From: Craspedostauros australis
Taxonomy: Eukaryota > Bacillariophyta > Bacillariophyceae > Mastogloiales > Achnanthaceae
Length of the DNA: 64,000 nucleotides
Reading direction: 5' to 3'
Assembly: GCA_026770025.1 (NCBI GenBank)
Contig: JAMXDE010000016.1
Span: 1,054,001 to 1,118,000, forward strand
Numbering within the stretch: the first letter of the stretch is position 1; the number at the start of each line of letters is the position of its first letter. The translations under genes and the position numbers were made by a program. Below, piece by piece: positions 21,706 through 48,500 of the stretch. Below the pieces are notes generated by a model. That model worked only from the letters and a program-made list of their open reading frames with translations, did not search any database and had not been told where the DNA came from.

Positions 21706-21728
21706 TAGAGAGTTATCGCATGTAACTT
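21706..21728 (+). repeat. Left terminal inverted repeat of the 6.8 kb element
   Basis: Begins TAGAGAGTTATCGC and ends GTAACTT; the reverse complement at 28460-28482 differs at two positions. Confidence 0.82.
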
Positions 21729-22354
21729 CAATGAGTCCCGGGGTACAAAATAACCTGATAGAGATATTTTTCGGGGGGTACGGGCGAGCCAGCCACTCCT
21801 TAGATTTACATGCCATGCGTTTTGAAGCTTTTATTTTACATGCCATGTAACTCCAACAGTCCCGCCAAATGAGAACTCCACGCGGAAGTAAAGTGAATTG
21901 ACAATTTGTTACCCAATCATAGTCGCACACTTCTGGTCTATTCGCATCTTCATTGTTCTCGAGTTTGCCTTGTTTCTTTTTTAGATTAGCGTCAATGTGA
22001 ACGGTTCGACCCAATTTTCGTGGTCGAAGGGATCGTGTTTCTCCGCACGTCCTTCGTTGCGTCTGTTGGTGCAGCTGCCGCAAAAGCGCGGGCAGATGGC
22101 GCGAAACTGACGAATGCCACTTACGTCATTCGAAGATGCAGCACAACAGCAGGCAGCCACCATCAGCACCATGCCAGAAAAAAAACAAACAAAACAACAA
22201 CAAGCCGGTCACCGATTTGTGTTGAGAGAAAAACTGATGTGTTCGAACAGAGCGAGATCCCTCTTCATCCACACCCAAACAACAATCATCTTCCCCACAC
22301 ATCCATCTTGTTCACACACCCTTCATCGCTCATCCATTGAGATACTATGCCATC

Positions 22355-24812: not shown

Positions 24813-26776
24813 ACCATCATCAGCAACGCCATCATCAGCAACGCCATCATTTGCGACGCCATCATCAGCGATGCCATCATCAGTGACGCCATAACTTGCG
24901 ACGCCGTCATCAGCAATGCCATCATCAGTGACGCCATCATCAGTGACGCCATCATTTGCGACGCCATCATTTGCGACGCCATCATCAGTGACGCCATCAT
25001 CAGGGACGCCATAACTTGCGATGCCATCATCAGCGATGCCATCATCAGTGACGCCATCATTTGCGACGCCATCATCAGCAATGCCATCATCAGCAATGCC
25101 ATCATCAGCAATGCCATCATCAGCAATGCCATCATCAGCAATGCCATCATCAGCAACGCCATCATCAGCGACGCCATAATTTGCGACGCCATCATCAGCG
25201 ACTCCATCATCCGCACCGCCATCATCCGCAACACCATCATCCGCAACACCATCATCCGCGACGCCATAATTTGCGACGCCATCATCAGCGATGCCAGCAT
25301 CAGCGACGCCATAATTTGCGGCGCCATCATCACCGATGCCATCATCAGTGACGCCATCATCAGCGTTGCCATCATCACCAACGCCATCATTTGCGACATT
25401 ATTATCAGCGATGCCATCATCAGCAACGCCATCATCAGTGACGCCATAACTTGCGACGCCATCATCAGCGATGCCATCATTTGCGACGCCATCATTTGCA
25501 ACGCCATCATCAGCAATGCCATCATCAGTGACGCCATCATTTGCGACGCCATCATTTGCGACGCCATCATCAGCAATGCCATCATCAGCAACGCCATTAT
25601 CAGCGACGCCATCATCAGCGACGCCATCATCAGCGATGCCATCATCCGCAACGCCATCATCAGCAACGCCATCATCAGTGACGCCATCAACAGTGACGCC
25701 ATCATTAGCAACGCCATCATCCGCGATGCCATAATTTGCGACGCCATCATCAGCAACGCCATCATTTGCGACGCTATCATCAGTGACGCCATCATCCGCA
25801 ACACCATCATCCGCAACGCCATCATCCGCGACGCCATAATTTGCGACGCCATCATCAGCAACGCCATAATTTGCGACGCCATCATCAGCGACGCCATCAT
25901 CAGCAACGCCATCATCAGCGATGCCATCATCAGCAACGCCATCATCAGCAACGCCATCATCAGTGACGCCATCAACAGTGACGCCATCATTTGCGACGCC
26001 ATCATCAGTGACGATATCATCAGCGACGCCACAGCAACTCCATCATTTGCGACGTTATTGTCAGCGACGCCATCATCAGCAACGCCATCATCCGCAACGC
26101 CATCATCCGCAACGCCATCATCCGCGACGCCATCATCCGCAACGCCATCATCAGCAACGCCATAATTTGCGACGCCATCATCAGCGACGCCATAATTTGC
26201 GATGCCATCATCAGCAACGCCATCATCAGCAACGCCATCAACAGTGACGCCATAATTTGCGACGCCATAATTTGCGACGCCATCATCAGCAACGCCATCA
26301 TCAGCAACGCCATCATCAGCGACGTCATAATTTGCGACGCCATCAATTGCAACGCCATCATCAGCGACGCCGCAGCGACTCCATCATTTGCGACGTTATT
26401 GTCAGCGACGCCATCATCCGCAACGCCATCATCAGCGATGCCATCATCCGTGAAGCCATCATCCGTGAAGCCATAATTTGCAACGCCATCATCAGCGATG
26501 CCATCATCAGCAACGCCATAATTTGCGACGCCATCATCATCAACGCCATCATCAGTGACGCCATCATCAGCGACGCCATAACTTGCGACGCCATCATCAG
26601 CGATGCCATCATCCGTGAAGCCATCATCCGTGAAGCCATCATTTGCAACGCCATCATCAGCGATGCCATCATCAGCGATGCCATCATCAGCAACGCCATC
26701 ATCAGCGATGCCATCATTTGCGACGGTATCATTTGTGACAATATCATCAGCGACGCCATCATTTGCAACGCCATCA
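24813..26776. repeat. 15-bp minisatellite, about 130 copies
   Basis: Tandem copies of a unit close to GACGCCATCATCAGC run for about 1.96 kb with only scattered substitutions. Frequent variants change CAGC to TTGC or CCGC, and G/A at the first base. The phase is almost never broken. Because 15 is a multiple of three and the unit has no stop, five-residue periodic open frames exist on both strands (459 and 431 codons); I treat these as by-products. The array lies between the convergent 3' ends of the two transposon genes. Confidence 0.95.
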
Positions 26777-26876
26777 CATGCGCCACGAACGCGATGTAAC
26801 TAGGACATAGTAACAGTTGATTATGTATGGCACTATCGAAAGTGCACAGTATTGAAATGAACGACAGCCAATTGGA

Positions 26877-28139
26877 TCATGGAATCAAGCTGATATACTC
26901 CTCCATGGACAGCTTTTCAGATGTGTATCGTGATGATTGCTCATTGCCATAGAGTGTGCAACGAAGGTTGGTGAAAAATGCCGCAATGTACTGCATGTGG
27001 GTGAGCGGATTCCAATACATCTTGAGCTGATTCTTCACCCCCAGCAATGGGAAGTTCCTGCCGATCTCCATGAACTCCCACTCAACACAGATTCGTGCAC
27101 TAGACATGTCCTTGTTGCACAGAGCTTCAGAAGAACCCCGAGTGGTGTTGCGAAATGCACCAAGGATGTATGCTGTTGTTTGGTACGCCGGATCGCCATA
27201 CAAACAATACAGCGGATCGTGACCAGGCAACGGCATCAATTGGCGCAAGTGATCCTCAACTTCACTCTCACGCAGCATGTGCATGTCATGACAGGCACCC
27301 AGGATGGGCCCATAGTAATGAAGAATCAATCCATCTGCACCAACAATCCCTTGAAACTTCACTCCATGCAGATGCTTGTGTCCAGAATACGCCAATTCTT
27401 GGTTGTAGGTTGGTCGGCACGTCGCAGAGAACGTCCCGTCAACGAAGCCGATGACATTGTTGACCAATTGTTTTGTGAGCTTGCAGACATTGCCAGCGTA
27501 CTGCTGAAAGCGAGGGTAGAACAGCCCAATGTCACTCAGGTATGGAGCCGCGATTTCATAGAAGTAAAGAAAGAAGGTGGAACAGATACAAGAAAGCCTG
27601 TTGACATCCATATCGAAGCGATCCTCCATGTCAATCAATCGATCTCGATGAGCCAATCGATACAGCATGATCAGAACACCGACCTCGAAGGACACAGCCA
27701 AGCGATTCTTCACCTGTATAGATCTGGGATCGGCCTCGCCAGACACAGCGTTGAATTTTGGCCAAAGCGCGACGAGGATTCGACGCAGGTGGTCCTTCCG
27801 AAACCGGAAGTGTTTCAGAGCATCCCTCTCTGACAGCTGACGAATTGTGACACCACGATTGCTATGAATCCGTGGAGGATCCAGTGGAAGAAGGTATTGA
27901 TGCTGTAGTTGCAGGGTGTGCACGCCAAGGGCAAGCACATTGCGGAAGTGCAGAAGGAGATCCTCCATGTCGTCATCGTCAAGATCATCTATTGGAAGCT
28001 GAGCTAGCCATGTAGCGGCACGCACGAATCTGGCCCTTGCCTCTGCGCAGGCCTCGCGCTCGGGCAAGCAATTCCACACGCGTTGAGACATCTTTGGGAG
28101 AAGTCCATTGTGGGAACATATGCGAGGCAAGTGGTGCAT
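26877..28139 (-). CDS. PIF/Harbinger-type DDE transposase (DDE_Tnp_4)
   Basis: The frame is open and intact over about 420 codons; I give the outer ATG (28139), but the ATG at 28091 has a better context (aaagATG) and may be the true start. The RNase-H-fold catalytic residues are present: Asp in GFVDGT (27432-27446), Asp in YGDPAY (27183-27200) and Glu in ICVEWEF (near 27081). The end (QLKMYWNPLTHMQYIAAFF, then LRCTLYGN, then SMEEYISL) matches the version of this transposase common in fungi and oomycetes. An upstream helical region with RKDHLRRIL and FEVGVLIMLYRLAHRDRL resembles the family's N-terminal HTH. The protein cuts and re-joins element ends. It lies within 23-bp inverted repeats, and no disabling mutation is seen. 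Confidence 0.9.
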   Translation of the reverse strand: MHHLPRICSHNGLLPKMSQRVWNCLPEREACAEARARFVRAATWLAQLPIDDLDDDDMEDLLLHFRNVLALGVHTLQLQHQYLLPLDPPRIHSNRGVTIRQLSERDALKHFRFRKDHLRRILVALWPKFNAVSGEADPRSIQVKNRLAVSFEVGVLIMLYRLAHRDRLIDMEDRFDMDVNRLSCICSTFFLYFYEIAAPYLSDIGLFYPRFQQYAGNVCKLTKQLVNNVIGFVDGTFSATCRPTYNQELAYSGHKHLHGVKFQGIVGADGLILHYYGPILGACHDMHMLRESEVEDHLRQLMPLPGHDPLYCLYGDPAYQTTAYILGAFRNTTRGSSEALCNKDMSSARICVEWEFMEIGRNFPLLGVKNQLKMYWNPLTHMQYIAAFFTNLRCTLYGNEQSSRYTSEKLSMEEYISLIP

Positions 28140-28459
28140 ATGACCAACATGGCAGAGACACTGAAACGGAAGAGGAGGCAAAGATACGAACAAGCACGAA
28201 CATGCAGGTGGAAGAGCTGAACATTATTTTTTGTTCGTTGTGAACGGAAACGACAAGTGGAGAGGAACGAACTTCCTCTTGTGAGAATCTCGCGCCAAAG
28301 CAGGCTACTCGAAAACATGGATAAGGCTAGACAACCTTGATGACGTCATCGTATGATTACTTTGATTTACGTCAGTCCTTCCAAGATTCAATGTCACAGC
28401 GAACCTTGGGGGGAGGCGTCCCAAATCGCGTCACATCGACAGTTTCAGGGGATGGCTTA

Positions 28460-28482
28460 AAGTTACCAGCGATAACTCTCTA
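28460..28482 (-). repeat. Right terminal inverted repeat of the 6.8 kb element
   Basis: Inverted copy of 21706-21728 with two mismatches. Host sequence resumes after it, 296 bp before the next gene's start codon. Confidence 0.82.
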
Positions 28483-30026: not shown

Positions 30027-32312
30027 TTAGACTTCGGCCATATCCAGCATATGCAGCAGCTCTTGTCCATCCAGCAGATCAAATGAATCCTTCCTCGACA
30101 ATTCCGGCATGAATGACATCGTCTGTATGGGCTCCATGTCGTCGAAGGCGCCGATGTCATCGGTCCTGCATGCGCTGTTGCTTCCGACGATGCCAACTCC
30201 GCCGTATTCCTGGACTGTATCCGGAGGAGACAACGGTGGCGTGACCGTCGGTTCGAGCGGCCTAGAAAGATTGGCCGAAGATGATACCGGGGAGACTGTC
30301 GTCGGTGGTGTGAATGAGGTGGGAACAACGGCCGGCTTGGCCAATGGCGGATCCAATTCCTTTCGAAGCACCGTGTTGTTGCGGAAGGCGTGGCTGACCT
30401 TCTCGCGAGCCTTCTCAGGCATGACCTCGATCCAGAACTCGGGCTCGTCATCTTCCTGCTGCTTCGTCTTGCTCTTCGTCCCGCCAGCGTCCTTCTTACC
30501 CTTCTTCTGCTGCTTCGATTGGTCCTTCTTCAGGAAGCGAAATCCTTCGCTGTTGATCTGCTTAACGATCTCAATCGTCAACATCTGCTTCTCCTTCATC
30601 CTGCTCTGCTGGTACTGCTCCCAGTGCTGATCGACGATCTCGGCAAGCCGCAGATTGCCTGGATACTCCTGGTACGGACGCCCCCGCCCGAGCAGGACGT
30701 CTCCGATCTTCGGGATTTCGATGTTGGAGACGCCGATGTCATGACATCTTTGCTGTCGCTGCTGCGCCTCTATCTGCTGTCGCTCCTTGAGCCACTGCTG
30801 GAATGGTTCTGCCAGGACGCGGCCTGTCTCCTTGTCGACTGGGAAATTCTTGACCTTGATGCCGAATGTCATCAACGTGTACAAACTTTCGAGAAGTGAG
30901 CCTATGCATTGAGCATGAAATGAAATGACGTGGCATGATGTGTGGCATGGTATGGCAGATACGGATAGTTTTGGTGCGAGGTGGGCATAGGTAGATCGAT
31001 AAGGGGGCGCGAGGGATCGAGAAGAGAGGTTAGAGTGAAGGCATGGATGTCAAAATTGTCGAATTATGGTGCAATTGCGCGACTTCACGCGCTGGCACGA
31101 GTACTTGCCGCCACCACAACTGCCGCGCTTGTTGCAGCCAAGCACCTGGCGTGTCTCGGTTCGAGATGCGGCGCAATCTCAGAACAGCCCTCTGGATACA
31201 CGAAGGTAGGCGGGCAGGCAGGGGATGTCCACAGACAGACAGTCAGGAGGAGCAGTAGAACAGAGCATTGCATGGAATTGCAACTTACCGTTGTGAGCGC
31301 GATACCGAACCCGACCGCGGCGACCGATGATGTGCTGGACGGCCGCCATGGGCGCTGCGAGCTTTGGATTGTCGAAGCAGAAATGAACGGCCGTGGTTGC
31401 CAGGGGATGGCAGGCCAGGAATCTGGAACCGTAGCGGACGAAGCCCATGTCCTTGTATTGGCGGAAGAGCTCCGACTCCTGCTGGCAGTCGGTGGCGATG
31501 CCGGCGTCGTACATGAGCAGCACCACGCCATGCTTCGAGGCGTCCGGGTGGCCCAGGCCGACATCGAAGAGGTACCAGTAGACCCGCGCGACTGTCTGGA
31601 TGGTCTTGTACACGGCTCGCTTGCGTGAGAATGCCACGATGACGGGGCGTCCGATGTGATCCCGTCCCAGCCACTGCACGCGGCCGGTATCAAGGTACTT
31701 CTTGTCGTCGTCGAGCAGATCATCGTAGGTGATGGTGCTGCAGAGCTTCTCCAGACCGAAGAGCTCCAGCTTGAGTTCGAAGTAATCGACGATGCGTCGC
31801 GCTGTCCGCTTGGGGTGGAAGTCCTCGGCGCGCAGGAAGTGGATGCAGAAGTCGAGGGAGGTGAACTTCTTTGGTCTGAGGAAGGTGGCCTTGTAGTAGG
31901 CAGGGCGCTGCTTGATCTTGCGGATTTCGGCGTGGAGCTGCTGCATGCTGGTGCGGAGGACCTCTGGCGTTTCCTTGATCTTGTCCGAAATGCCGTGGAT
32001 GTCCTCGTACACCCGCTGCCTCTCGTGGATGGTGAGGGAGTTGAGCTCCTGCACCAGCATGGCCTCCGCCTTGGCCTCGTTCTTGCGGATCTCATCCGAT
32101 GGCTGCATCCATTGCAGGGCACTGTTGCCGTTGCTGCCACCGTTGCTGTTGCCATTGCTGTTGCCATTGCTGTTCGCGCCTCCTCCGCCTCCGCCACTGC
32201 CGAACAGAGTGAAGCATCCTGGGGTGCTGCTGTTGCTGGATGGATCAGATACGCAGGAGCTGCCTCCGCTGCTGACGTAGCCTTCGTCGATGAGGTGCTT
32301 GCGCTTGCCCAT
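30027..32312 (-). CDS. CRAL-TRIO (Sec14-like) protein with C-terminal DUF6824, two exons
   Basis: Exon 1 is 32312-31289 and exon 2 is 30901-30027, giving 632 aa; the 387-bp intron has a GTAAGT donor and an ATAG acceptor. These look like two separate genes until spliced: the join gives RAHNGSLLESLYTLMTFGI, the end of the CRAL-TRIO domain. The N-terminus is Ser/Gly/Asn-rich. Next come LDFCIHFLRAEDFHPKRTAR (CRAL-TRIO N-terminal helix), then YLDTGRVQWLGRDHIGRPVI and KHGVVLLMYDAG in the lipid-binding core. Exon 2 continues to DUF6824: IGDVLLGRGRPYQEYPGNLR, then FWIEVMPEKAREKVSHAFR. Sec14-type domains bind lipids such as phosphoinositides; DUF6824 is a stramenopile-rich domain of unknown role. The 12.7 kb transposon begins 521 bp upstream of the start codon. 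Confidence 0.85.
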
Positions 32313-32832
32313 GGTTCTTTGTGCTGTTGCTGTTGCTGTTGATGCTACTGTTGCTGTTGTCTGTAGTCGTTGTTCGTTTGCGATACTGGGTGTACTCGTA
32401 TTGCTGATCAGAGTGGAGTGGAGTGGAGCAGGGAACGTGTGATTCTTGGTTGTTCTTTGTTCACGTGGATTTGAACTTGCGATGTGGAGATGCTTGTGTT
32501 GCTTTTCGTTGGCTTTCGTTTTGTTTGATAGGAATGTGTTTTTATGGACGCTTCCGCAGGTACGGTGGTCGACGATTGTGTTCGAGAACGCTGTTGGTTT
32601 TGATGAGGTTGGTGCTGACGACAGCAGCGGCGATGGGCAGCGCCAAGGAGACAAAACTCGTCGTGACTGGCCTTGACAGATCGATCCTGCATGCTCCTTG
32701 CACTTGTTCCATGTGTGTCTCAGCGACGACAGCCTTCGGTTTTGTGCCTCCTCCTCGGTTGTGGTCCCATTTTAGGGGCGGAAGCAGTCCGATTGGCCCC
32801 TCCGCACACAGCGCAGACGAACAGAGTTCGCA
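32313..32832. other. 5' flank of the CRAL-TRIO gene
   Basis: Promoter and leader region, ending at the boundary of the large transposon. CAACAG/CAAC simple sequence on the coding strand lies just before the start codon (32313-32360). Confidence 0.4.
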
Positions 32833-32865
32833 CCCAGGGAGGGGAAGGGAAAACGGCGTTTTTTT
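32833..32865 (+). repeat. Left terminal inverted repeat of the 12.7 kb element
   Basis: Starts CCCAGGGAGGGG and ends CGTTTTTTT; inverted copy at 45522-45554 with 32 of 33 positions equal. Confidence 0.88.
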
Positions 32866-34340
32866 GTAAAAGCGACTCAGAAAGAATAGAAAGTGGGTCC
32901 ATTGTTGCTATTTTCCAAATTTTCCTGCTGTTCGTTGGAATCAGTCATTTCACAGGTTTCGCTGTTGCTTTCCTCGTGTATTTGTGACTTGCTTTGGGTT
33001 TGGGACAACAAGTCCATTGGTCATCGCGACTTCGTCCGCAACTCGAAGGCACACATTGCCACGACCCTCCCTGTACCGACTAATGGCACACCAACCTACC
33101 ATGGTGACATTGCAACCTGCTTCTCTCCTCCTCCCCATGCATGCTATGCACAGTTCTTGTTATGTTGTTGTTGTTGTACCATATAGACTATAGTCTATAA
33201 CTGTGAGCTGGTGGCGCTGTTGTACCGCCTCGTTTATTCCACATGAGACCTGCATTGGGCACAGATACTGTAAGCAGGTCTTGTCTTGCCGTGTGATTGC
33301 ATGCAATCGTGTATGCCAGCATATGTATAGTGCACGCACAGGCGGAACACGTGGTGGCACTGGCCGCTCCCACAGTGGATCGGGTGAAGCGTGCTGGACA
33401 TGTGGTTGAGTGTCAGGATGTTGGATGCAGATGGTGCACAGTGCATCCATGCTAGCTACTCTGGAGGAACCATGGTCTCAACATGCGGCATGCCATGTGT
33501 CATGGCTAGAAGCCGTACTGCTCTGCTTGGATCGGTTTCCAGTAGGTTCTGGGCAAGGTGATGGAGGTGGGGAGGTATGGGCATTTGTGGTAGCTCTAAT
33601 ATGGCTTCACAACGATTCCTTGCACTTGGACAACATGCCATGCTTGGCTTCTTCCCAGAGCTTGTGATTTCGGCCGGACCCTTGTTGTAGTGCCATGTGT
33701 TGGAGCTCGTAAGTCGCTTTGGTTTGCCAGTTCATGTCCTTGTGGTGGTGCAATCTTCATGGAGATATGTGACTGTGCTTTCTGTACTCTATTGACCGTG
33801 CACCCCATATCATCCCGTCCAGGCCGTCTCCGTGCTGGGCGTCCATGATGGTGGTGGTTGTCATGTGCCTGATTCCTTTTGGCGGAGTGCTGCTTTTGCG
33901 TTTCAGGATGTGGAGAGCTTGGACGAGCAGGCCACCTCTCCAAGCATGAACCTTGGGGAGCATGATGATGTCCCAGACTAGTTCAATGCAGGAGTCCCAA
34001 AATTATCTGCCTGCATGCACTGTTGTTGTTCTTATGCTACACAAGCAACTCCTTGTTGCTCTGTCATGTGTTCACAAACAACACAATCATTATTGTGTTC
34101 AAAGTGTTTTATGCTCCTATTGCTCCTCTTGCTTCTCTTTGTTTTCTTTGTTCTTTCCTCTACCTTCAGAGACCTGGATTGCTCCTCCAGTCCAATTTGG
34201 TTCAGCCTGGGTTACTTCCTTGGTTGGCACAGCCAACTGAAGTTTTTTCAGCAGTCTTTGCGACGAATAGATTGAAAAGTGGTTGTTGTTATTGCTATTT
34301 CTAATTTTGTTGGTTTATTGCATGTGAGTATTGCTTATTC
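32866..34340. other. Element-internal left arm, no gene supported
   Basis: About 1.5 kb between the left terminus and the transposase stop. It holds a perfect 18-bp palindrome, TATAGACTATAGTCTATA (33182-33199), and GT-rich sequence. Open frames near 33410-33940 on both strands are short and unrecognised. Subterminal transposase-binding sites would be expected here but cannot be defined. Confidence 0.4.
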
Positions 34341-35389
34341 TTACGGTTCCACCAGGGAATCCAACCAATCATCCATCTCTTGGATGGTCCGCATTGTTCG
34401 GTTGAGGTTAAACAGTGGATTTGTATGTTTCAGTTCCAATTGCGTGATTGTGGCAACCGAGTACATTGTGTACTGGTGCTTCTCCAGCAAGTGCCGCCAT
34501 TTTTGCTTCAGGCACTTCCAGTTCTTGAACCTTTTATGCACAGTTTCATGCCGTGCACGAATCACGCCATTGCGTCGTGTGCGATCCAAGCAGCAGCTTT
34601 GCTCACCTCTGTACCCACGGTCTGCAATGACCTGTTCATTCGGATCCAATGCATGCAGTAGCTTCTCACGATAAATCTTGATGTCTGGCCACTCCCCACA
34701 AGGATATGGTCCGTCCACCCACACAAGGTGCCCTGTCACAATGGAGATACAAGTTTCATATCGAAGCCCTGCAGCTTGGAATTTGTGGGAATACCAGCCT
34801 GGATCATACAATGCAGGCTCCATGATGAGGAAGTCAGTACCGTCTACGGATGCCATTGTTGTTGTTCCTGGTGGACAGCCAATTTTCCGATCTTCAAAGC
34901 ATATCTGGGATAAGATCAACACATGTGAACATTGGCAAAGGCAGAGATTGTGAGAGATATGGCACACAATTCATCAATTGCAGCATACAGATTGCGGTTC
35001 CTCTGTTGATGTTCCCAAGTTGTGTCACTTACAAGTTCTCGGCTAAGGAGAGCCAATGCACGAAGGATAATCCAGGTCCACTTCTGTACAGTTTTCACAT
35101 CCTTTCCCATTCGTCCTGCCAGCACACCCCATGTTGGATATTGTTTGAGAAACATGAGAGCGCATAGCAGGTGCTCCATTGTTGTATTCCATGGCAGTAA
35201 GTCTTCCTCATTCAGTCCATCCCATGCCATGGCAGCCACTTTGGTGTGGGTTCCGAAGTTGCTTCGGAAACATGATTGCACGCCGTACGATGGTGAAGTC
35301 TGGAGTGTAGGATCAAACGTTTGTCCCAGAAGCTTCATGCCCTTGCATGCAATGGTTGTCTCAGTTGTTTCTGTGGTTTCAGATGCCAT
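34341..35389 (-). CDS. IS5/DDE_Tnp_4-like transposase, two exons
   Basis: Exon 1 is 35389-35033 and exon 2 is 34904-34341, giving 306 aa; the 128-bp intron has a GTAAGT donor and a CCCAG acceptor, phase 0. Exon 1 encodes an N-terminal helical region with a helix-turn-helix look (MEHLLCALMFLKQYPTWGVL, then KDVKTVQKWTWIILRAL). Exon 2 holds the catalytic core: Asp in VDGTDF (about residue 140), Asp in VIADRGY (about 214) and Glu in RARHETVHKRF (about 239), the last being the IS5-family signature. YSHKF and GLRYE between them are also typical. This clearly differs from the transposase at 27 kb, so the two elements are not copies of one family. No inactivating change is seen. Confidence 0.88.
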
Positions 35390-35619
35390 TCTGATGTATC
35401 TTGGTATGCCAACAGGATGGAGGACAAAATTGTGACATCCACTAGTGCAATATTCAATTCAGCAACAGAGAGGAACACAGACAGGACAAGCACTGCCATT
35501 GTCCTTTGAGCTGAACATACAATAACATGGAAACTTCAGCATGTTGTTTGGCTCGTTGATCTTGGCTGTCTGTGGAGGTTTGGCTTGGCACAAAAACGAC
35601 AATTCTAACAAGACGGCCG

Positions 35620-38600
35620 TACAGAGACATGGAAGAGGATTGGACATGTTGGATGTGATTGTTCGCGAGTAATTCGCACATGCGATGTTGTTGATATCGT
35701 GTATGTCGTGTCTGTCATGTCCGTGCAGTGTTGTTGCAACAAACCGGGTACGGAGTCATCGAACACACAGGGTCTGGTCGTGGTGTTTTGTTAACCGTGC
35801 AACACGAGCAAAACAGACAGGCAACACCATCATGAACCAAACATGACCAGCATCGACAGACAGAGACAGAGGAGGATTGGACATGTTGGGTCTGATTGTT
35901 CCTGGACCTTTTTGTACATGCGATGTTGTTCACATTGTGTCTGTCGTGTCTGTCATGTCTGTGCAGTGTTGTCGCAACAAACCGGGTACGGAGTCATCGA
36001 ACACACAGGGTCTGGTTGTGGTATTTTGGCCACCGCACAACACCAGCCAAACACACAGGCACAATCATCACGAACCAAACATGACCAGTGCAAACAGAGA
36101 CATGGAAGAGGATTGGACATGTTGGATGTGATTGTTCGCGAGTAATTCGCACATGCGATGTTGTTGATATCGTGTATGTCGTGTCTGTCATGTCCGCGCA
36201 GTGTCGCCGCAACAAACCGGGTACGGAGTCATCGAACACACAGGGTCTGGTCGTGGTGTTTTGTCAACTGTGCAACCCAAGCAAAACAAACAGGCACAAT
36301 CATCATGAACCAAACATGACGATTGTCGACAAGCAGAGACAGAGGAGGATTGGGCATGTTGGTTCTGATTGTTCCTGGACCTTTTTGTACATGCGATGTT
36401 GTTCACATTGTGTCTGTCGTGTCTGTTATGTCCGTGCAGTGTTATCGCAACAAACCGGGTACGGAGTCATCGAACACACAGGGTCTGGTTGTGGTATTTT
36501 GGCAACCGTGCAACACCAGCCAAACACACAGGCACAATCATCACGAACCAAACACAACCGCTGTCAACAGACAGAGACAGAGACGAAGAACAGGAGGACC
36601 CTGTCTGTCTGTGTACGAATATTTATGCATGTACAATGTTGTTGTTATTGTCAATGTTGCTATTTAGCTTGTCTCTGTGCAGGACTATTGCAACCAACCA
36701 GCACCGGAGAGTCATCGAACACACAGGGTCTTGTTATGGTATTTTGGCAACCGCACAACACCAGCCAAACACACAGGCACAATCATCACGAACCAAACAC
36801 AACCGCTGTCAACAGAGAGAGACAGAGACGAAGAACAGGAGGACCGTGTCTGTCTGTGTGCGAGTATTTATGCACATGTGATGTTGTTGTTATCGTCAAT
36901 GTTGCTATTTAGCCTGTCTCTGTGCAGGACCATTGCGACCAACCAGCAGTGGAGAGTCATCGAACACACAGGGTCTGGTTGTCGTACTTTTTCGATCGCG
37001 CAACATCAGCCAAACACACAGGCGAAATCATCACGAACCAAACATGACCAGCACCCACAGACAGAGACAGAGAGACGAAGAACAGGAGGACTGTGTCTGT
37101 CTGTGTGCGAATAATTATGCACATGTGATGTTGTTGTTATTGTCAATGTTGCTATTTAGCCTGTCTCTGTGCAGGACCATTGCAACCAACCAGCACCGGA
37201 GAGTCATCGAACACACAGGGTCTGCTTGTCGTACTTTTTCGATCGCGCAACACCAGCCAAACACACAGGCGAAATCATCACGAACCAAACATGACCAGCA
37301 CCCACAGACAGAGACAGAGAGACGAAGAACAGGAGGACCGTGTCTGTCTGTGTGCGAATAATTATGCACATGTGATGTTGTTGTTATTGTCAATGTTGCT
37401 ATTTAGCCTGTCTCTGTGCAGGACCATTGCAACCAACCAGCACCGAAGAGTTATGGAACACACAGGGTCTGCTTGTCGTACTTTTCTGACCACACAACAC
37501 CAGCCAAACACACAGGCGAAATCATCACGAACCAAACATGACCAGCATCGACAGACAGAGAGACAGAGACGAAGAACAGGAGGACCGTGTCTGTCTGTGT
37601 GCGAGCATTTATGCACATGTGATGTTGTTGTTATTGTCAATGTTGCTATTTAGCCTGTCTCTGTGCAGGACCATTGCAACCAACCAGCACCGGAGAGTCA
37701 TCGAACACACAGGGTCTGGTTGTCGTACTTTTTCGATCGCGCAACACCAGCCAAACACACAGGCGAAATCATCACGAACCAAACATGACCAGCATCGACA
37801 GACAGAGAGACAGAGACGAAGAACAGGAGGACCGTGTCTGTCTGTGTGCGAGCATTTATGCACATGTGATGTTGTTGTTATTGTCAATGTTGCTATTTAG
37901 CCTGTCTCTGTGCAGGACTATTGCAACCAACCAGCACCGGAGAGTCATCGAACACACAGGGTCTGGTTGTCGTACTTTTTCGATCGCGCAACACCAGCCA
38001 AACACACAGGCGAAATCATCACGAACCAAACATGACCAGCATCGACAGACAGAGAGACAGAGACGAAGAACAGGAGGACCGTGTCTGTCTGTGTGCGAGC
38101 ATTTATGCACATGTGATGTTGTTGTTATTGTCAATGTTGCTATTTAGCCTGTCTCTGTGCAGGACTATTGCAACCAACCAGCACCGGAGAGTCATCGAAC
38201 ACACAGGGTCTGGTTGTCGTACTTTTTCGATCGCGCAACACCAGCCAAACACACAGGCGAAATCATCACGAACCAAACATGACCAGCATCGACAGACAGA
38301 GAGAGACAGAGACGAAGAACAAGAGGACCATGTCTGTCTGTGTGCGAATAATTATGCACGTGTGATGTTGTTGTTATTGCCAATGTTGCTATTTAGCCTG
38401 TTTCTGTGCAGGACTATTGCAACCAACCAGCACCAGAGAGTCATCGAACACACAGGGTCTGGTTGTCGTACTTTTTCGATCGCGCAACACCAGCCAAACA
38501 CACAGGCGAAATCATCACGAACCAAACATGACCAGCATCGACAGACACAGAGGAGGATTGGACGGGCTGGGTTGGATTGTCCTCAATCCATTTTGTGCGT

Positions 38601-38770
38601 ACATGTTGTGTCCATGTACTACCATCCCAACAAACCGGGTACAGAGTGTTGAGAATCAGGACTAATCGTAGTAAGTCATCAAGCACGCAACACAAGCAAA
38701 ACAGACAGGCTAATTTGTGACGAACCGAACATCACCATCAGACCCAGACACAGAGACGAAGGTCGGGAGT
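35620..38770. repeat. 247-bp satellite array in two subfamilies, about 13 units
   Basis: Using GAACACACAGGGTCT as an anchor, copies occur at 35761, 35999, 36234, 36472, 36717, 36962, 37209, 37456 (variant), 37703, 37950, 38197 and 38446. Spacing is 235-238 bp for the first units (A type, with GTACGGAGTCATC), then 245-249 bp, settling at exactly 247 (B type, with GCACCGGAGAGTC). A diverged A-type unit closes the array (about 38540-38770). The 247-bp period is not a multiple of three, yet long frames cross it; these are artefacts of low stop density. The array lies in the divergent 5' region of the transposon's genes. Confidence 0.92.
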
Positions 38771-39796
38771 ATTTTGTCACAAGTGCCATGTTTGACTGGG
38801 CATGTTTCCCTCGGACGTTGATATTGTTTGTTGCATTTCGCCCTGGATCCGTGGAACACATTCTTCTTTTTGTCGTCTCGTCCTCGCTTTCCGCATAGAG
38901 CCAGTGTTTTTCCTGTATCGCCTTGGGCCCATTCGCCCGACATGTTGGTTGGTTCGTCTGTACACTGCAGTTTTAAACGGTCTGCTCCATGTGGCACGAT
39001 GTGCCAGGAATATTGCCGTGGTTGTTGCAGTTTTGAACTGACACATTCAGGAGGAATGGTGCAATCAATACCATTTGGGCATTTGTTAGTCCCTTTTCAG
39101 TACTGGTTGACGTGCTTTTGAGACTAATTTATGCCTTCGTGTCCATTCCGACGATAAAAAACATTATTTAGACCCATTTGTGTCGCCTGTTGTGCGTCAT
39201 GTGACAAAATTGGGACTATGTGAGTCCTTGAGATGACCGATTTGGACCGAAATACCTTGATTTTGGACCACTGTGATGCCATTTGGTGTGTTTATCTACT
39301 GTGACATTGATACGTATCCGTATCCACTAGGTCGTATTCAACCACCCCAATGGATTGTCCGATCGTGCATGGACTGTTTGCGACATTCCAAGACACTCGC
39401 CACCAACACCGAGGAATGGGGCATTTCGATTCGCTTGTCGTCGATTCACCAGGTTGTACTCGACCACACAGGCTAATTGTCCGATACTGATTCGTCTTTT
39501 TGCGGTAACACGGGAAGGTATTGGCATCACAGCGAACTCACGATCGTGCTTGTTTCGTTTTCGCACGAAGTCGTAACGGGAGAAACCAAACATGCCATGC
39601 CAACGGACCAGGACGCCCACACACACAACACACACAACACAGAGAGAGAGAGAGAGAGGTGTTGGAAAACGATGGCAACATTTGCACCATCAACCCACAT
39701 GCCCACATGTTCCCCCCAAAACAAATCAATGTGGCCATAAAAACAAAATCGCAACACTCACACACACACACTCACCCACACACCAACGAATCGGTG
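38771..39796. other. Element-internal spacer between arrays
   Basis: About 1 kb of non-repetitive sequence apart from a GA-rich tract (39641-39658) and CA-rich tracts (39610-39637, 39755-39785). No gene is recognised. Confidence 0.4.
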
Positions 39797-41990
39797 CATT
39801 GGCACATCAACACATCCAAACATTGGCGCATCCTCGCATCAACACATCTGAACATTGGCGCATTCACTCGTCCTCTCATCAACACATCCAAACATTGGCA
39901 CGTCCACACATCAACACATCTGCACATTTGAACATTGGTGCATTCACTCGTCGTCGCATCAACACATCTGCACACTGGCGCATCCAGTCGTCGTCACATC
40001 AACACATCCGAACATTGGCACATTCACTCGTCGTCGCATCAACACATCCGAACATTGGTGCATCCGATCATCCCAACATTGGTGCATCCGATCATCCCAA
40101 CATTGGCGCGTCCACGCGTTGTCGCATGAACACATCCAAACATTGGCACATCCACTCATCCTCTCATCAACACATCCGAACATTGGCGCATCCACTCGTC
40201 GTCACATCAACACATCCAAACATTGGCGCATTCACTCGTCCTCGCATCAACACATCTGCACACTGGCGCATCCACTCGTCGTCGCATCAACACATCCAAA
40301 CATCGTCGCATCAACACATCCGAACATTGGTGCATCCGACCATCCCAACATTGGCGCATCCGATCATCCCAACATTGGCGCGTCCACGCGTTGTCGCATG
40401 AACACATCCAAACATTGGCACATCCACTCATCCTCTCATCAACACATCTGAACATTGGCGCATCCACTCGTCGTCACATCAACACATCCAAACATTGGCG
40501 CATTCACTCGTCCTCGCATCAACACATCTGCACACTGGCGCATCCACTCGTCGTCGCATCAACACATCCAAACATCGTCGCATCCGATCATCCCAACATT
40601 GGCGCATCCGATCATCCCAACATTGGCGCATCCGATCATCCCAACATTGGCGCATCCGATCATCCCAACATTGGCGCGTCCACGCGTTGTCGCATGAACA
40701 CATCCAAACATTGGCACATCCACTCGTCCTCTCATCAACACATCCGAACATTGGCGCATTCACTCATCCTTGCATCAACACATCCAAACATTGGCGCATT
40801 CACTCGTCCTCGCATCAACACATCCGACCATTGGCGCATCCACACATCCCCGCATCAACACATCCGAACATTGGCGCGTCCACACATCAACACATCTGCA
40901 CATCCGAATTGGCGCATTCACTCATCCTCCCATCAACACATCCGAACCTTGGCGCATCCACTCATCCTCGCATCAACACATCCAAACATTGGCGCGTCCA
41001 CTCATCCTCACATCAACACATCCTAACATTGGCGCATTCACTCGTCCTCTCATCAACACATCCAAACATTGGCACGTCCACACATCAACACATCTGCACA
41101 TCCGAACATTAGCGCATTCACTCGTCCTTGCATCAACACATCTGAACATTGGCGCATCCACTCATCCGAACATTGGCACGTCCACGCACGTTCACACCAA
41201 CACATCCAAACATTGGCACGTCCACTCATCCTCGCATAAACACATCCAAACATTGGCGCATTCACTCATCCTCGTATCAACACATCCGAACATTGACACG
41301 TCCACTCATCCTTGCATCAACACATCCAAACATTGGCGCGTCCACACATCAACCCATCTGCACATCCAAACATTAGCGCATTCACTCGTTTTTGCATCAA
41401 CACATCCGAACACTGGCACATCCACTCATCCTCGCATCAACACATCCGAACATTGGCGCGTCCACGCGTTGTCGCATCAACACATCCAAACATTGGCGCA
41501 TCCACTCATCCTCGCATCAACACATCCGAACACTGGCACATCGACTCATCGTTGCATCAACACATCCGAACATTGGCACATCCACGCGTTATCGCATCAA
41601 CACATCCAAACATTGGCGCATCCACTCATCCTTGCATCAACACATCCGAACATTGGCGCGTCCACACATCAACACATCTGCACATCCGAATTGGCGCATT
41701 CACTCATCCTCCCATCAACACATCCGAACCTTGGCGCATCCACTTGTCGTCGCATCAACACATCCAAACATTGGCGCATTCACTCGTCCTCGCATCAACG
41801 CATCTGAACATTGGCGCGTCCACTCATCCTCCCATCAACACATCCGAACCTTGGTGCATCCACTCATCCTCGCATCAACACATCCGAACATTGGCGCATC
41901 CACGCGTTCTCACATCAACACATCAACACATCAACGCATTCACACATCAATGCATGGGCACATTGGCGCATCAACACATTTGCACATTGA
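39797..41990. repeat. 40-bp minisatellite with higher-order repeats
   Basis: The basic unit is about 40 bp, of the form AACACATCCRAACATTGG followed by CGCATCCACTCGTCSTCGCATC. It recurs about 50 times with variants. A 24-bp short form (CATCCCAACATTGG plus CGCATCCGAT) is amplified four to five times at 40580-40675 and occurs in smaller blocks at 40070-40110 and 40340-40380. Larger blocks repeat with a period near 272 bp (for example around 40223 and 40495). The array ends about 40 bp before the accessory gene's start codon, so it forms that gene's immediate upstream region. Confidence 0.93.
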
Positions 41991-42029
41991 CCCAACAACT
42001 CAACAGCACAACATTGGAGACATTTCACA

Positions 42030-45000
42030 ATGGTGGGCACCGATCCACGTTTCTACAAGAATGGGCCTGATGCCAATGAGCTCATGAAGGCATTCTTGGC
42101 TGATCCCACGAAATGGCACTGGGAGGCAGCACCTTTGCGTCTGCAACATTCGTTCTTACTCAAGTATGATGCAAAGAAGTTCGTTCGGACTCTACGTGAG
42201 TTCAAACGGACATTGGTGAAGAAGGGTTTGTTTCACCGTAAGTACTGCATGCCCAGCCACACAATCAAAGCTCCATCATGAACTCTTCTGCTTGTATTCA
42301 GGTGCCTTCTCATCTATTTTTCTATCTTTCCTATGACTCCAACCTTTGGCATTCATCTCTTCATCATCCATTGCAGAGGATGGCAAGCGAAACAAGGTCT
42401 CGATACATAGGCTTGGTGCCAACCTCCGTCCTGTGGATGTACCAGAAGCCAATAATGCTGAGTTGGAACCAACGAATCACGATGCCAACTCTTCCACCAG
42501 TCATAACACCACCAACAGCCATGCCAACAACACCAGGAGCGGAACCAGCAGGAACAACACACGCAGAAACAGCACCAACAGACGAAGCACACGGGGCCGT
42601 ATGTACGAAGCATCACATGAAGGTGACACTGCCCGCCCTCATGGAATCAACAGCACAAATGAGAGCAGCAGCAGCAGCAGCAGCAGCACATCCGATGGGT
42701 TATCTGAATCATCAGATGATGTGGAGGGCACAGATTCTGACAATGACATGGAATACCTTGGCACTACCAACCAACCAGGCCAATGTGGATCTACGAGCAC
42801 GCCCTATGACCCCATCTCTGCAAGATTCGGCCACTTTTTTGAGCTATCAGAATCCCAACGAGTTGCAAAGTTTCGAAAGCTGAGCCGCACCATCGAGGTC
42901 TTCCACACAACTCAGGTGTGGAGACCTCGTGGTGAAAGGTACCGCATGGTTGGTGTCGACTTTCACATGCCTGCGTGCACCACCCGGGATGATGCGACAG
43001 TGACCATCCAAAGTCGGAAGGTGGATGGAGTACCTCGGATGTTCCTGGTGTTGCTATACAAGCCACCAACGGCTTTTGGAAAGGACGGCAGCATCGTGGA
43101 CATCCTCATTGACAAGTTGGGTCATCCTTTCTCTGATGCAGGGCAGAAACGTTCTGCCCATGTGCAACAGTTCCGGAACGAAGACTTTGCAGAGTCCTTC
43201 CGTTCGGAAATGCTTGTACCCATGCCATTTCCTATCGATTCCATCTTCTGTGACACACCATGCCGAAGATTGGGAGGAGTGGTCTGGTTACGTCATGCTG
43301 TGAAGGACAATGATGGTGCAACCCACAACATGCTTACAATAACGGTACGTTTGAAGGAAGCAACCAATGTTGGGGTGACCCGGCACTTTTCTGTGTGCCA
43401 TGGTCTGGGCTTTGCAGATGGTGACGGAAGCCATCCTGATGTTAGTGACCAAGTCACTAACACACCGAACTGCACCACTGACGTTGCCACCCACAACATC
43501 AACAACAATGTGACAAGCACAAGGAACATGACGGTCGGCACCGCAGCTGCCATGGCTGGCAACAGCATGACACCATCAACACCCCAACCCACAATCCACC
43601 TAGGAGGTCGTCGCCCCACCCCAGCAGCGGACAGTCACCACAACAACAACAGACAACTACCATCAACAACGCAGCCAAGGCTGCATGACCAACAAGCCAC
43701 ACCCACGGTTTCTGCCATCAGTCATCAGACAGCAACCCAGACTGCCACCGACGACACCATGTCAGTTTTTACAGACAGTACTGAAATAATGCGAGATCGT
43801 ATTGAAATCAAGCGGGCAACGCTTGAGATGATGGAGGCTGAGCTGGCTCTCAAGGTGGAGGAAAAGCGTGCAAAGCGGGCACGGGAGGACACCTTGCAAG
43901 AGAGACCCAGATTGTTTGCAGATGCAACTGAAGAAAGCCAAGCAACAAAGAAGCCTCGTGCTCTCACACAAGTGCCCATGGCAGGTGGCCCCAACGTCAA
44001 TGTGGACGTCTCCCAACATGCCAACAGATGGTGGGAGCACGAGGATATCTCCCTCGATGCGGCGTTGGTTGATGCTGCTGGCCAGTTGGCAAGCAGATCA
44101 GGTGGTGAACCTCCAGCAGCAGCAGCAGCAGCAGCAGGTGTGAGAGCCAGTACAGATCAGTACACGCGCCGTCGCACTGCTATGGATGAAAGAAGCCAGA
44201 ACAGTCGCATTCACCCATCACTCCAACGGATTCTACCAGCCCAGCCAAGCGATGCACATCGCAGAACACGAACAGACACGCAGGCAATGCCACCACCAAG
44301 ATCACCAGCACAAGCATTGGTGGAAGGCTCAGACAGTGGAGGAGGAGGGGCACAAGAAGAGGCGATTGCTGTAGTGGAATCACTTGTGCGGATCCTACCA
44401 GCCCAGGCGGGCGATGCACATCACAGAACACGAACAGACACACAGGCAATGCCACCACCAAGATCACCAGCACGAGCATTGGTGGAAAGCTCAGACAGTG
44501 GAGGGGGACAGGCACAGCAAAAGGGGGTTGCTGTGGTGGGATCGCCCCAAGAGATCCCAACAGCCCAGGCAGGCGGTGTGCATCATACAACAGGAACAGA
44601 TGCCCAATCCGAGGTGGCGATTTTGCCAACACCACCACAATCACCAGCAGCCAGACGTTCCAAAGTCTCAGAAATTGGAAGAATAAGGGCATGGCCAGAC
44701 GAGATGGCAACAGCAGGATCGCCCCAATGGATCGTGCCATCCCAGGCAGGCGGTGCGCAGCATACAACACGAACAGATGCACAAACAGAGGTGGCGATCT
44801 TGCCATCACCACCATCACCGGCATCAACAAGAGGAGCCGAAACAGCTGGAGTCCGGATGCCATCGCCAAGCGCAACTTTGGCATCAACCGAATCGGTCGC
44901 AAAAGATGATGCAAGAGGAGAGACAGCAGAAGGAAGTATCCAACAGCCGCCGCAGGTTGCAACAGTGCCCACAACAACGGCGGAAGCAACCACGAATAAT

Positions 45001-45144
45001 TCCACAATGGCAGAACAAGCAATAGGAGACAAACAATCACAGCACCAGCATGATGACCAAGAGAAAGAACAAAGAAAGCCGACTACTACTGGGATGAGGA
45101 CCCGTGGGAGGTCAGCACGACAACGCCGTGGTGATGCAACTTAA
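42030..45144 (+). CDS. 991-aa transposon accessory protein, unknown function, two exons
   Basis: Exon 1 is 42030-42237 and exon 2 is 42377-45144; the 139-bp intron has a GTAAGT donor and a TTGCAG acceptor. The N-terminal 70 residues form a compact unit (DPTKWHWEAAPLRLQHSFLL, KKFVRTLREFKRTLVKKG) reminiscent of a helical DNA-binding or HSF-like fold; this is only an impression. A Ser/Asn/Thr-rich linker follows. A folded-looking domain (bases about 42840-43400) contains YRMVGVDFHMPACTT, RMFLVLLYKPPTAFGKDG and DTPCRRLGGVVWLRHAV. A coiled coil near 43785-43890 and four tandem C-terminal repeats come after, then a basic tail (GMRTRGRSARQRRG). It lies inside the 33-bp inverted repeats. I recognise no family; a DNA-binding partner of the transposase is inferred from position. 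Confidence 0.72.
44227..44830 (+). repeat. Four in-frame tandem repeats in the accessory protein
   Basis: Units start at 44227, 44389, 44551 and 44728 (162, 162 and 177 bp apart). Each begins with a hydrophobic Pro segment, then AQxxxAHxxTxTDxQ, then a Pro-rich stretch. The first two are nearly identical; the later two diverge (TDAQSEVAILPTPPQSP). Confidence 0.88.
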
Positions 45145-45521
45145 CCGCCTCAGCAAGGCAAAGGAGAATACCATAAATAGTGGGGTCAGAATGTACAATG
45201 TTTGCTTGTTGTAACTAGACGAATCCTGCTGATGGAATGCAACAAGTCAACTGGCAAGAGAGCCACAACAACATCCGCAACCCCCATTCGAAGAGAGGGG
45301 AACATGCTGGCTCTGTGGCTGTCGAATGTGTGGAATCGCATGAAGAGGCGAAGGATCCGTGGACCAGAATGAAAAAAGCCAAAAAACAACAAGATGCAGT
45401 CCGTGCACAACATGATAATGAGCAAAAAAGCCACAAGTAGGTTTTGAAAATACGCAAGAATTTTTCGCCATTTGGTGGCCCGCATCCCTTTTCGACTTTC
45501 GTTTTCCTTCGTCGCAATTTT

Positions 45522-45554
45522 AAAAAAACGCCGTTTTCCCTTCCCCTCCCAGGG
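45522..45554 (-). repeat. Right terminal inverted repeat of the 12.7 kb element
   Basis: Inverted copy of 32833-32865. Between the accessory gene's stop (45144) and this end are about 380 bp of gene-free subterminal sequence. Confidence 0.88.
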
Positions 45555-48500
45555 AGTCCGGTGATAGCACGGCGTATTTGCGGAGGGAGACAGGCGTGGC
45601 GTTATGTAATACCGCCCATTGTCCGTTTTCGTGTGCCCTTTTTGTCGTTCCTGCCGACTTTGTCAGAGGATGATCCACACAACACAGAGACGTGCTAACT
45701 TGCGGCGTTGCCGTGGCATGAACTTAGGTGATGGTTGAACCAGACACAGGTCCTGCGACAAGCGATGGACAGAGCGCGACACAGAAAGGTTGGTCTCGCA
45801 AGGGAGAGTAGAGCGGAGTCGAGTGGAGCCTGGTCGTGGGGGAGGAGCTACGACTACTCATGTGATGTCCACACAGGTGAAGCGGAGAAGAAGTTGCAAA
45901 GTGATCACCACTGTTGGGGATGCTGTCGAAACATCGCCGCTCCTGTTCCTCGCTGTTCGCGCTCACTTTCTTCACCATGTCCAAAGTCCCAAACGATCCC
46001 TTGATACGACCAGCAGAAAGCGCAGTACCTGCCGAGTTGGAGCGCTCTGCTCGTCTCTCTGCTCCGTCCGAACTCTATCTGCAATCGGATGCGCCCAGAC
46101 ACAATGATGAGTCCAAGGGTATCGTGCAAGGACCAACTCAAACAAGACGGAAGCTGTCTCCTCGGCAATTTCCTCGCTCATGGTGGACGTTGTGGTCGAT
46201 TGGACTTATTTGCCGCTGGGTTTGTGTTACCTTGAAGTAGAGACGGAGAGAGCAACAAACCAAGCGACAGAGACGGAGAGATCAACAGGGAGGCGGATGG
46301 CCAGGGCAAAGCTCGATCTTGGGGCAGAGCACAAATCGAAAACTCCAGAGCGAAGCGCAATCTGAACAGGATCCTTCCACTCTGTTGCGTCGTACCGTGT
46401 TCCATCCGAAGGAACCTCTCACTACTACCCGTCGTACGAACAGAGAGAAGCGCGTCGGCACTTGAAGCTCTAAACGTGGCACTTGCATTGGTCTAAGTAT
46501 TGCTCTCTCTTCTTTCTCTGGAGGGGGAGAGAATGCAAACAGAGAATGCTTGTTCCTGAAAGGTTCACTGATCAAGACTCCTACTGCTTGTGGCTGTTGG
46601 TTATTGGACATCAAGAGCTACCGCTGAGTCGTGCAGTCAGCTCCAGGAACACAGATGAAGACCACGTTGTTCATCCATCGTTGATGTTGTCATGTTGTCA
46701 TGGTAACGAGGATGTGGATGAGGTTGGATGCGTGTGAAGGTGGTAGAGAACATACGAAAGGATAGAGACTCGTAGCTCGTACTCGTACATAAAATAGGTC
46801 TCACGCAGAAGAACCTCGTTACCTTGTTGCTCAAACCAGGGGAGGGTGTCTATCGTACGAGTATGGGCGGAATGAGATGGAATGTCGAAACCTGTTTCTT
46901 GAGTGGCCCCTGCAACTGCTACCGCGTTCACGGTGCTCAAGGATCATTTGTATCTTTGGAACGGCTCACCGCGAGGAGCAAAAAGTCCATTTGAGTACTC
47001 GTATTCGCATTTCCGCAAGAACAATCGTTGCGAACCACTCTATTCTTTGCGCGGCGTGACCACCGCGCAAATGGTAACGCCAGAAACGAAGGCGATTCGT
47101 TGAACGCCAAAACAGCTTCTCGCCGTTTCGACGCATCCATGATCAACAAACGAACCATCACACGGACATGATCCTCGATTTGTCCTGCTTGTCCGACAAA
47201 GCCATCAGTTGTTGCCAACCACGTCTGCCCACGTGCACGTCCCATCATGACACGATTTGGAACTTCGTCGAACCATCGACAACAAAGGTCGCCTTCGGAC
47301 GAGTTCACAATTTCGAATTTGGGTGGGAGCGACCACGTCCAGCGCTGGCGCCGATGCATTTTCGCCACGACGCACACGAAACCGAAGTGGATGGAAGGGG
47401 TGTGATGTGAGAAGTGATTCCACTCAGAGAAGTGGATCGGAACAGCAACCATCCTGGCTGGATTGAGGACGAATCGTACCAAATCATGCGAGACAACCCA
47501 TCAGCAGAATCATCAAGAACGTCAGAACGCCACCGATTCTTCGGTGGCTGGGGCGGCGGTCGATACGATGGAGAGGATGCAAGGACAACACGTCTGAGGC
47601 ACATGTCCTCGCACGAGTACTGACACGGATGTCCCGACAACATGCTTCTTTGTTTTGGAATGTCCCCCTCTCACCTGCTTCTGTGCCAATGCCGCGCTGA
47701 GATTCACAGTCGCTCGACTGCAGTCGAATCAGAAGGAGGCAAACGCGACGCAGGGATTTGGCATCATTCCAAGGAGGGAGGAGCACCCCATGAATGAGCA
47801 GGTCGCACGATCAGAACATCACAGCAAATCCCATCGCAGATGAGCGGCACGGCGCTTCATGCAGAGGAAGCAGCTGTGAAAGCGTGTTTACCAATACGTT
47901 ACGCACGATCACCATACTCGTACCATACTCATGTTGCGGCATCCAACAGAAACGTCCAATCTGCATCAGGCCTCCGCGGACGTTCTTTCTTGTCCTCTTC
48001 TTGATGTTCCGCTAGTACCAAAACGATCTTGCGAAAGCATGTTGCACTCTGGTATCATGCTCCGAACAAGCACCAAAGTTGCCATGGCAGACTTCTCTTC
48101 TACGTGAGCAAGGAGCAAGCTTGCTGTCTGCCACACCTTGTCATGCCAGACCACTGTGTGCTGCGTTCCGTACTCGCAAGGCCACGCGCGGCACCATCCA
48201 AGCAATTGCTTGGCGCCAATCCTCCTCGTCCAAACGAAAAACAACATTTGTCGGCCGTGTCCAAAGAACCGCCTTCACGTCGTCAGTGTGGTGGAAGTTG
48301 ATGGGACTGACAATGTCTTCTTTCTGCGCTGTCCACTTCTCGGACAGGAACGCCGATGGGCTTGCTCGCGGCTGTGCTGGTTTCTAAATACTCGGTCGAA
48401 TCAAAGAAGGAAATGCGAATTGTTGTTCCCGTTTACACACCATCATCGTGACTCAGGAAGTATCAATCGTGCATCCGGTTTGATTTTTGAAACGATCGGT

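Follow-up and report, generated by a model that had tools for sequence, protein, structure and literature searches.

Lineage-specific tandem arrays between the head-to-head genes of a Harbinger-like transposon family in the diatom Craspedostauros australis

Why would a cut-and-paste transposon carry two large, unrelated satellites between the start codons of its own genes? The question is raised by a 12.7-kb element of the diatom Craspedostauros australis, which lies in a stretch of 64,000 nucleotides (GenBank assembly GCA_026770025.1, contig JAMXDE010000016.1, positions 1,054,001 to 1,118,000 of the forward strand). This stretch is called the window below and numbered from its first letter; it sits in the contig labelled C14 of an assembly of 74.8 Mb in 90 contigs. 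An earlier note, made from the window alone, had proposed that the satellites may be transposase-binding or promoter repeats, or may expand by slippage during transposition. We followed the element and its relatives through the genome. The family is mobile, its arrays occupy a constant position, their units turn over, and their lengths change by whole units. The reading we favour, and consider rather probable, is that of a recently active Harbinger-like (PHIS) cut-and-paste family with two selected head-to-head genes, whose interval would carry fast-changing arrays as a tolerated spacer.

A mobile element and the position of its arrays

The transposon at 32838-45549 of the window (12,712 bp) is one complete, contiguous mobile element. 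Its end sequence, at up to two mismatches, occurs 59 times in the assembly, against 0 for a reversed control, and queries with 801 bp of each end gave at least 44 matches on the left (40 of 58 candidates scored) and at least 44 on the right (40 of 50). We read 11 complete copies and one more that is cut by a contig end, so that the search for other genomic copies proposed in the earlier note yielded many. All 11 complete copies are flanked by a perfect 3-bp target-site duplication (CAG, CAA, AAA, AAA, AAA, CAT, CTG, AAA, AAG, ATG and CCA), for which the chance is about 1 in 63 per site; since two of the AAA copies share flanks and represent one insertion, these amount to 10 independent sites. 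The inverted repeat of 33 bp with one mismatch that had been described is present, but its true extent is 28 bp, and over this length it is perfect; the earlier figure was too long because the duplication and two chance-matching flank bases had been included. Complete gene-bearing copies without large nested insertions measure 9.2-13.9 kb. Copies on contigs C10, C11, C36 and C66 have right ends identical over 2,100 bp and different flanks, so the window's clade of the family (clade 1) must have moved very recently. A search for empty sites in the assembly found none; other matches to the left flank are at most about 100 bp long.

The two genes lie head to head, and both of the spliced genes predicted earlier were borne out (Table 1). 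The transposase has 324 amino acids, one 74-bp intron and a match to the Pfam family PF13359 (DDE_Tnp_4; E 1.4e-6, 28.5 bits, cut-off 24.8). The second protein, of 991 amino acids and also with one intron, has no Pfam match, and searches with exon 1, exon 2, the N-terminal domain and the middle domain gave no convincing relative in Pfam or the PDB. For both genes, alignments to related copies mostly stop at the same exon boundaries. Ratios of non-synonymous to synonymous substitution rates (dN/dS) indicate that both genes are kept by purifying selection: the whole transposase gene gives 0.19-0.21 against copies C4a, C74 and C11b (0.20 against C11b), and the second gene, against C11b, gives 0.04 in the middle domain, 0.10 in the N-terminal domain and 0.64 in the rest. 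The second gene contains stops in copies C11a, C5, C27, C2b and C3.

Between the two start codons, arrays A and B fill 5,051 of 6,641 bp (76%), which is 40% of the element; the earlier statements that they take up most of this interval and more than a third of the element both hold. Is this a peculiarity of one copy? Counting arrays of at least 100 bp with a score of at least 100, we found arrays in the start-to-start interval of all nine gene-bearing clade-1 copies read to both ends, where they cover 45-80% of the interval in eight and 11% in C27, whose interval spans about 12.8 kb. Over the transposase and its 3' region, array coverage was 0 bp in each of the nine, and the flanks of these copies held 146 bp of array in 14,190 bp. 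In the window outside the 12.7-kb element, arrays make up 1,963 of 51,288 bp, all of it in a second transposon (21707-28481). The array A unit itself had 86 scored matches, every one of which falls within a copy of the element.

The arrangement extends to more distant relatives. The middle domain of the second protein had 73 matches in the assembly, of which 62 were used after 11 partial or secondary pieces had been set aside. At 24 of these places the protein is 75-100% identical to that of the window; the other 38, at 46-51%, fall into two groups by identity and matched range, which we call clades 2 and 3 and take to be mobile because their copies are dispersed. A transposase match lies upstream on the opposite strand in 59 of the 62 places; this pairing used 61 of 141 transposase match rows, and some pairs lie far apart, as nested insertions would cause (at C57:137200 the pairing takes the transposase of a nested clade-2 element). 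One copy of each distant clade was read, over stretches that do not cover whole elements. The clade-2 interval holds arrays of 60, 61 and 48 bp (916 of 2,612 bp) and the clade-3 interval arrays of 74, 126 and 33 bp (2,320 of 5,642 bp), and the stretches read contain no arrays of that size outside the interval.

Table 1. Positions of features in the window.
Feature	Position	Strand	Basis or remark
Left target-site duplication CAG	32835-32837	.	Matches 45550-45552
Left terminal inverted repeat, 28 bp, perfect	32838-32865	+	Core found 59 times in assembly, reversed control 0
Non-coding region 3' of transposase	32866-34340	.	Subfamilies alike in the outer 200 bp (conserved); free of tandem arrays; third gene not evident
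Transposase exon 2 with DDE_Tnp_4 domain and stop codon	34341-34891	-	PF13359; frame ends at 34341; same break in copies
Transposase exon 1, start codon at 35389	34966-35389	-	Matches in related copies break at same place
Array A, 12 counted units of about 235-249 bp (about 247)	35621-38551	.	Tandem-repeat scan, unit comparison
Spacer between arrays, about one copy of the 122-bp unit amplified in C27, C2b and C3	38552-39804	.	Copy comparison
Array B, 40-bp units on an 8-bp skeleton	39805-41924	.	Tandem-repeat scan, period analysis
Second protein exon 1, conserved N-terminal domain of about 69 amino acids	42030-42237	+	Exon breaks seen in related copies
Second protein exon 2, conserved middle domain, residues about 222-420	42377-45144	+	Without convincing Pfam or PDB relative
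162-bp repeat in coding sequence of second protein, multiple of 3	44217-44600	+	Tandem-repeat scan
Right terminal inverted repeat, 28 bp	45522-45549	-	Perfect pair with 32838-32865
Right target-site duplication CAG	45550-45552	.	Same as 32835-32837
Second transposon, 500-amino-acid reading frame, no function assigned	22337-23839	+	
Second transposon, transposase	26877-28193	-	DDE_Tnp_4, E 1.1e-17

Several further observations concern the family and its surroundings. Contig C2 holds two 1.95-kb deletion derivatives that keep both ends and have perfect duplications, with neither genes nor arrays; they share flanks and look like one insertion in a duplicated segment. On contig C9 there is a derivative of about 0.3 kb (about 1497-1815 of the stretch read) resembling a miniature inverted-repeat transposable element, with both ends and, by reading, an AAA duplication. 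At the end of contig C4 the C74 copy appears to be duplicated in unpolished form, together with its insertion flank, and on contig C57 (111112-140269) a clade-1 element apparently holds a nested clade-2 element, judged by coordinates only. A match to small-subunit ribosomal RNA (1362-3017 of another stretch read) comes in pieces: 434 model positions extend over 1,051 bp, after which some 450 bp are left unmatched, a pattern that points to insertions in that gene. The genome also gave 61 matches to the light-harvesting family; one of these proteins resembles, among structures that have been solved, light-harvesting proteins with fucoxanthin chlorophyll proteins among them, which fits a photosynthetic alga with a probably diatom-like antenna. 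We considered a third gene in the 1.5 kb that follow the transposase on its 3' side and rejected it, as no frame there is clearly conserved as a gene: tblastn of window frames of at least 60 amino acids against C11b, C3, C2b and C27 returned mostly pieces of 35-70% identity, many with stops, and a few short frames without. Rfam gave no match at gathering scores in window 32000-46500, and no stretch of the viral contigs fits the patterns of the second protein's middle domain. The second transposon of the window is likewise Harbinger-like, with a length of 6,775 bp, ends AGAGAGTTATCGC and the duplication ATT, and it contains a 1,963-bp array of 15-bp units between two convergent frames.

Turnover of units and change of array length

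The position of the arrays is constant, and what fills it is not. On the transposase side, the unit measures about 247 bp in the window, C4a and C74, 228-244 bp in C11a and C5, 214 bp in C11b and about 193 bp in C27, C2b and C3; in the last three copies a 122-bp segment that is present about once in the window has been amplified. On the side of the second gene, the leading period is 40 bp in the window and in C11a, 48 bp in C11b and 80 bp in the copy at 3.59 Mb of C2, and in each of these four arrays the eight best lags are all multiples of 8. We built a tree of array A from 55 units of nine copies, dropping between-anchor stretches outside 150-300 bp, so that some units of C4a, C74 and C11b are missing from it. 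End and near-end units group by position across copies, and most middle units by copy or subfamily. The last unit of the window is 99.6% identical to that of C4a and 80% identical to the window's own middle units, which are 93.8% identical to each other. This pattern is the one that concerted evolution through exchange inside arrays leaves, the end units being evidently orthologous and the middle units evidently homogenised within copy or subfamily.

Do the clades share any sequence in this interval? For five of six between-clade comparisons, the shared 11-mers were no more numerous than in the range given by 30 shuffles. With C3 and clade 3, the sixth, there were 24 where the shuffles reached at most 23, several of the words being of the low-complexity CACAGACAG type. 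The within-clade comparison of the window with C11b gave 133 against a shuffle maximum of 47. We rejected a regulatory word common to the clades on these counts, the sixth comparison being marginal. A strand skew shared by all arrays was also discarded: the plus strand of array B has an excess of C in the window and in C11b, but no such excess occurs in the arrays measured in clades 2 and 3.

Array length changes by whole units and much faster than the rest of the element. The clearest pair is the C34 copy and the 3.59-Mb copy of C2, which occupy different sites and have identical right ends (2,010 of 2,010 bp): the array A side is 2,341 bp in each, while the array B side is 1,892 bp in one and 2,855 bp in the other, corresponding to 12.9 and 24.9 copies of one 80-bp unit, 12 whole units apart. 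C74 and C4a are 99.6-99.8% identical in their unique parts, and the C4a copy has 249 bp more on the side of array A and 752 bp more on that of array B. In clade 2, the gene-to-gene distance is exactly 3,900 bp in five copies and off by about 60 or 121 bp in some others, although part of this spread may come from the second gene. Comparing array lengths across copies, as the earlier note had proposed, thus reveals steps of whole units. Its suggestion that arrays expand during transposition fares less clearly: the difference of 12 units may have arisen during or after transposition, but expansion during transposition is not the rule, as the four copies on C10, C11, C36 and C66, with their identical right ends, have near-equal arrays (the array A sides agree to within 3 bp, the array B sides to within 8 bp), from which we conclude that arrays are not resized at each transposition. 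The pair C74 and C4b was dropped as a test of change in place because of its excess of gaps (176 gap openings against 35 mismatches) and the apparently unpolished end of contig C4.

Spacer, promoter or transposition site

How might such an interval arise and persist? As we picture it, the arrays between the start codons move with the element, and segments within the interval would be amplified, homogenised and replaced by unequal exchange or replication slippage. By such amplification and replacement, each lineage would come to bear its own satellites, and array length would shift by whole units. On this view the arrays would be mainly tolerated, a spacer free in length that may also have a secondary part in regulation, and transposition would not depend on them. 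Several points weigh against this. That arrays keep one position in three clades could reflect selection for a function instead of tolerance, and clades 2 and 3 are each represented by one copy read. The clade-1 end repeat, at up to five errors, is absent from the two clade-2 and clade-3 stretches, which need not reach the ends of their elements. Nor are the arrays strictly confined to the interval, because a repeat of 162 or 174 bp lies inside the second gene in four of the nine clade-1 copies. Finally, array collapse or expansion by assembly error may affect single copies.

The most serious alternative is a modular divergent promoter, in which the arrays would be selected as repeated promoter or enhancer units for both genes and units would be lost and replaced, for which the monomers of mouse L1 offer a precedent; the excerpted reports describe them as varying in number between copies and having promoter activity (PMC9022269, PMC6454616). 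Such a function would fit the presence of arrays between the start codons in every gene-bearing copy read from three clades, with unit sequences that are not shared, as well as the lack of arrays in the 1.5 kb of non-coding sequence beyond the transposase, and the fact that the subfamilies have retained array A in tandem form even as its units became homogenised. The second transposon of the window speaks against it: its 1,963-bp array separates convergent genes, a place in which a promoter would not be looked for. A reading of the arrays as promoters alone loses weight by this, and the case, though a single element, suggests that arrays accumulate between the genes of this genome's Harbinger-like elements in either orientation of the genes. 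The wide range of array length and the absence of between-clade word sharing beyond shuffles in five of six comparisons point the same way. As candidates for the promoter repeats of the earlier note, the arrays are in the right position in all three clades, but neither their clade-specific units nor the convergent case favours the proposal, and we regard a modular promoter as possible but doubtful. A bolder and more tentative proposal would make the head-to-head interval a selected 'satellite promoter' resembling the L1 monomers, composed of modular promoter or insulating units whose sequence is repeatedly replaced in each clade, within a PHIS group of its own that has relaxed 3-bp targets and a new accessory protein.

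It is improbable that the arrays are cis sites for transposition, which would bind the transposase or the second protein and raise transposition efficiency, as proposed for Galileo. Array A does share an 11-bp word with the left end, at eight places in the array, and its 16 ten-mer hits exceed the shuffle mean of 3.9, a number reached by 0 of 50 shuffles. This excess arises because one word, found once near the left end, is counted in every unit, and the test overstates a single chance word because the tandem order is lost on shuffling. Between array B and the terminal 250 bp there is no common 10-mer (0 against a shuffle mean of 2.7), so the idea of transposase-binding repeats is left with that one word. 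In addition, the array-free derivatives on C2 and C9 keep both ends, although deletion in place after insertion would look the same. An assembly or chance artefact, with host satellites lying beside unrelated transposon ends, can be dismissed as extremely unlikely: tandem arrays are easily misassembled and the noisy duplicate at the end of C4 is a case in point, but ends, genes and arrays recur in the same order at many sites with different duplications, and no scored array A unit match lies outside a copy of the element.

Placement in the superfamily and known relatives

We call the family Harbinger-like because its transposase has a DDE_Tnp_4 domain. With this type of transposase, a 3-bp duplication in 11 of 11 copies and a 28-bp inverted repeat beginning GG, it conforms to the PHIS superfamily, in which, according to the excerpted text of a survey (PMC4482050), the short inverted repeat usually begins with A or G and most groups make a 3-bp duplication. 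The same text separates the groups by their duplications (TWA, AT, none, ANT, CWG and TNA), and here the agreement ends. Among the 10 independent sites, none has the TWA of PIF/Harbinger proper, none the ANT of Pangu and none the TNA within CTNAG of NuwaII; two (CAG and CTG) have the CWG of NuwaI. ISL2EU combines an AT duplication with a YqaJ second protein, whereas the duplications here are of 3 bp without a fixed AT and Pfam gave no YqaJ match; Spy makes no target duplication, and all 11 copies here have one. By published duplication patterns, then, the targets of this family fit none of the six groups.

Internal tandem repeats in transposons are already known. What this genome adds is a family with dozens of copies and three related lineages, in which every gene-bearing copy read has arrays in the same interval and the units are specific to the lineage. 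Copy pairs that are identical outside their arrays but whole units apart offer a measure of the rate of satellite growth and homogenisation, and the family could serve to test whether repeats in a divergent promoter alter transposon expression. Among the matches listed in the open literature on transposons and repeats, there was no Harbinger-like family with arrays between its genes.

The closest comparison is with the elements of the PHIS survey (PMC4482050), which in its excerpted text are alike in their DDE_Tnp_4-type transposase, 3-bp duplication, short inverted repeat starting with GG and two genes. There, autonomous elements average about 3.5-4.8 kb and a Myb/SANT second gene is given for PIF/Harbinger, NuwaI and NuwaII; the family described here differs in its length, its large arrays and its unmatched duplications, and the searches with its second protein turned up neither a Myb/SANT nor a YqaJ domain. 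The Harbinger elements of Ectocarpus (PMC12477816), another photosynthetic stramenopile, also have two genes, but the excerpted account gives all autonomous elements as tail-to-tail with ANT or TNA duplications, in contrast to the head-to-head family here; the second transposon of the window, tail-to-tail and with ATT, agrees with that description. Merlin elements (PMC8101967) are also DNA transposons with internal tandem repeats that differ between copies, yet they belong to another superfamily, and in the excerpted report their repeats are not tied to one divergent-gene interval across clades. The Drosophila foldback elements Tetris (PMC4079207) and Galileo (PMC3688188) likewise have internal tandem repeats of variable number; these, as excerpted, sit within long terminal inverted repeats, and those of Galileo hold transposase-binding sites. 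Mouse L1 is a retrotransposon whose monomer promoter activity has been measured, whereas the family here is known from sequence; even so, its 5' untranslated region, in the excerpted reports (PMC9022269, PMC6454616), offers a likeness in kind, with repeat units that vary in number, are specific to subfamilies and lie in a mobile element's promoter region.

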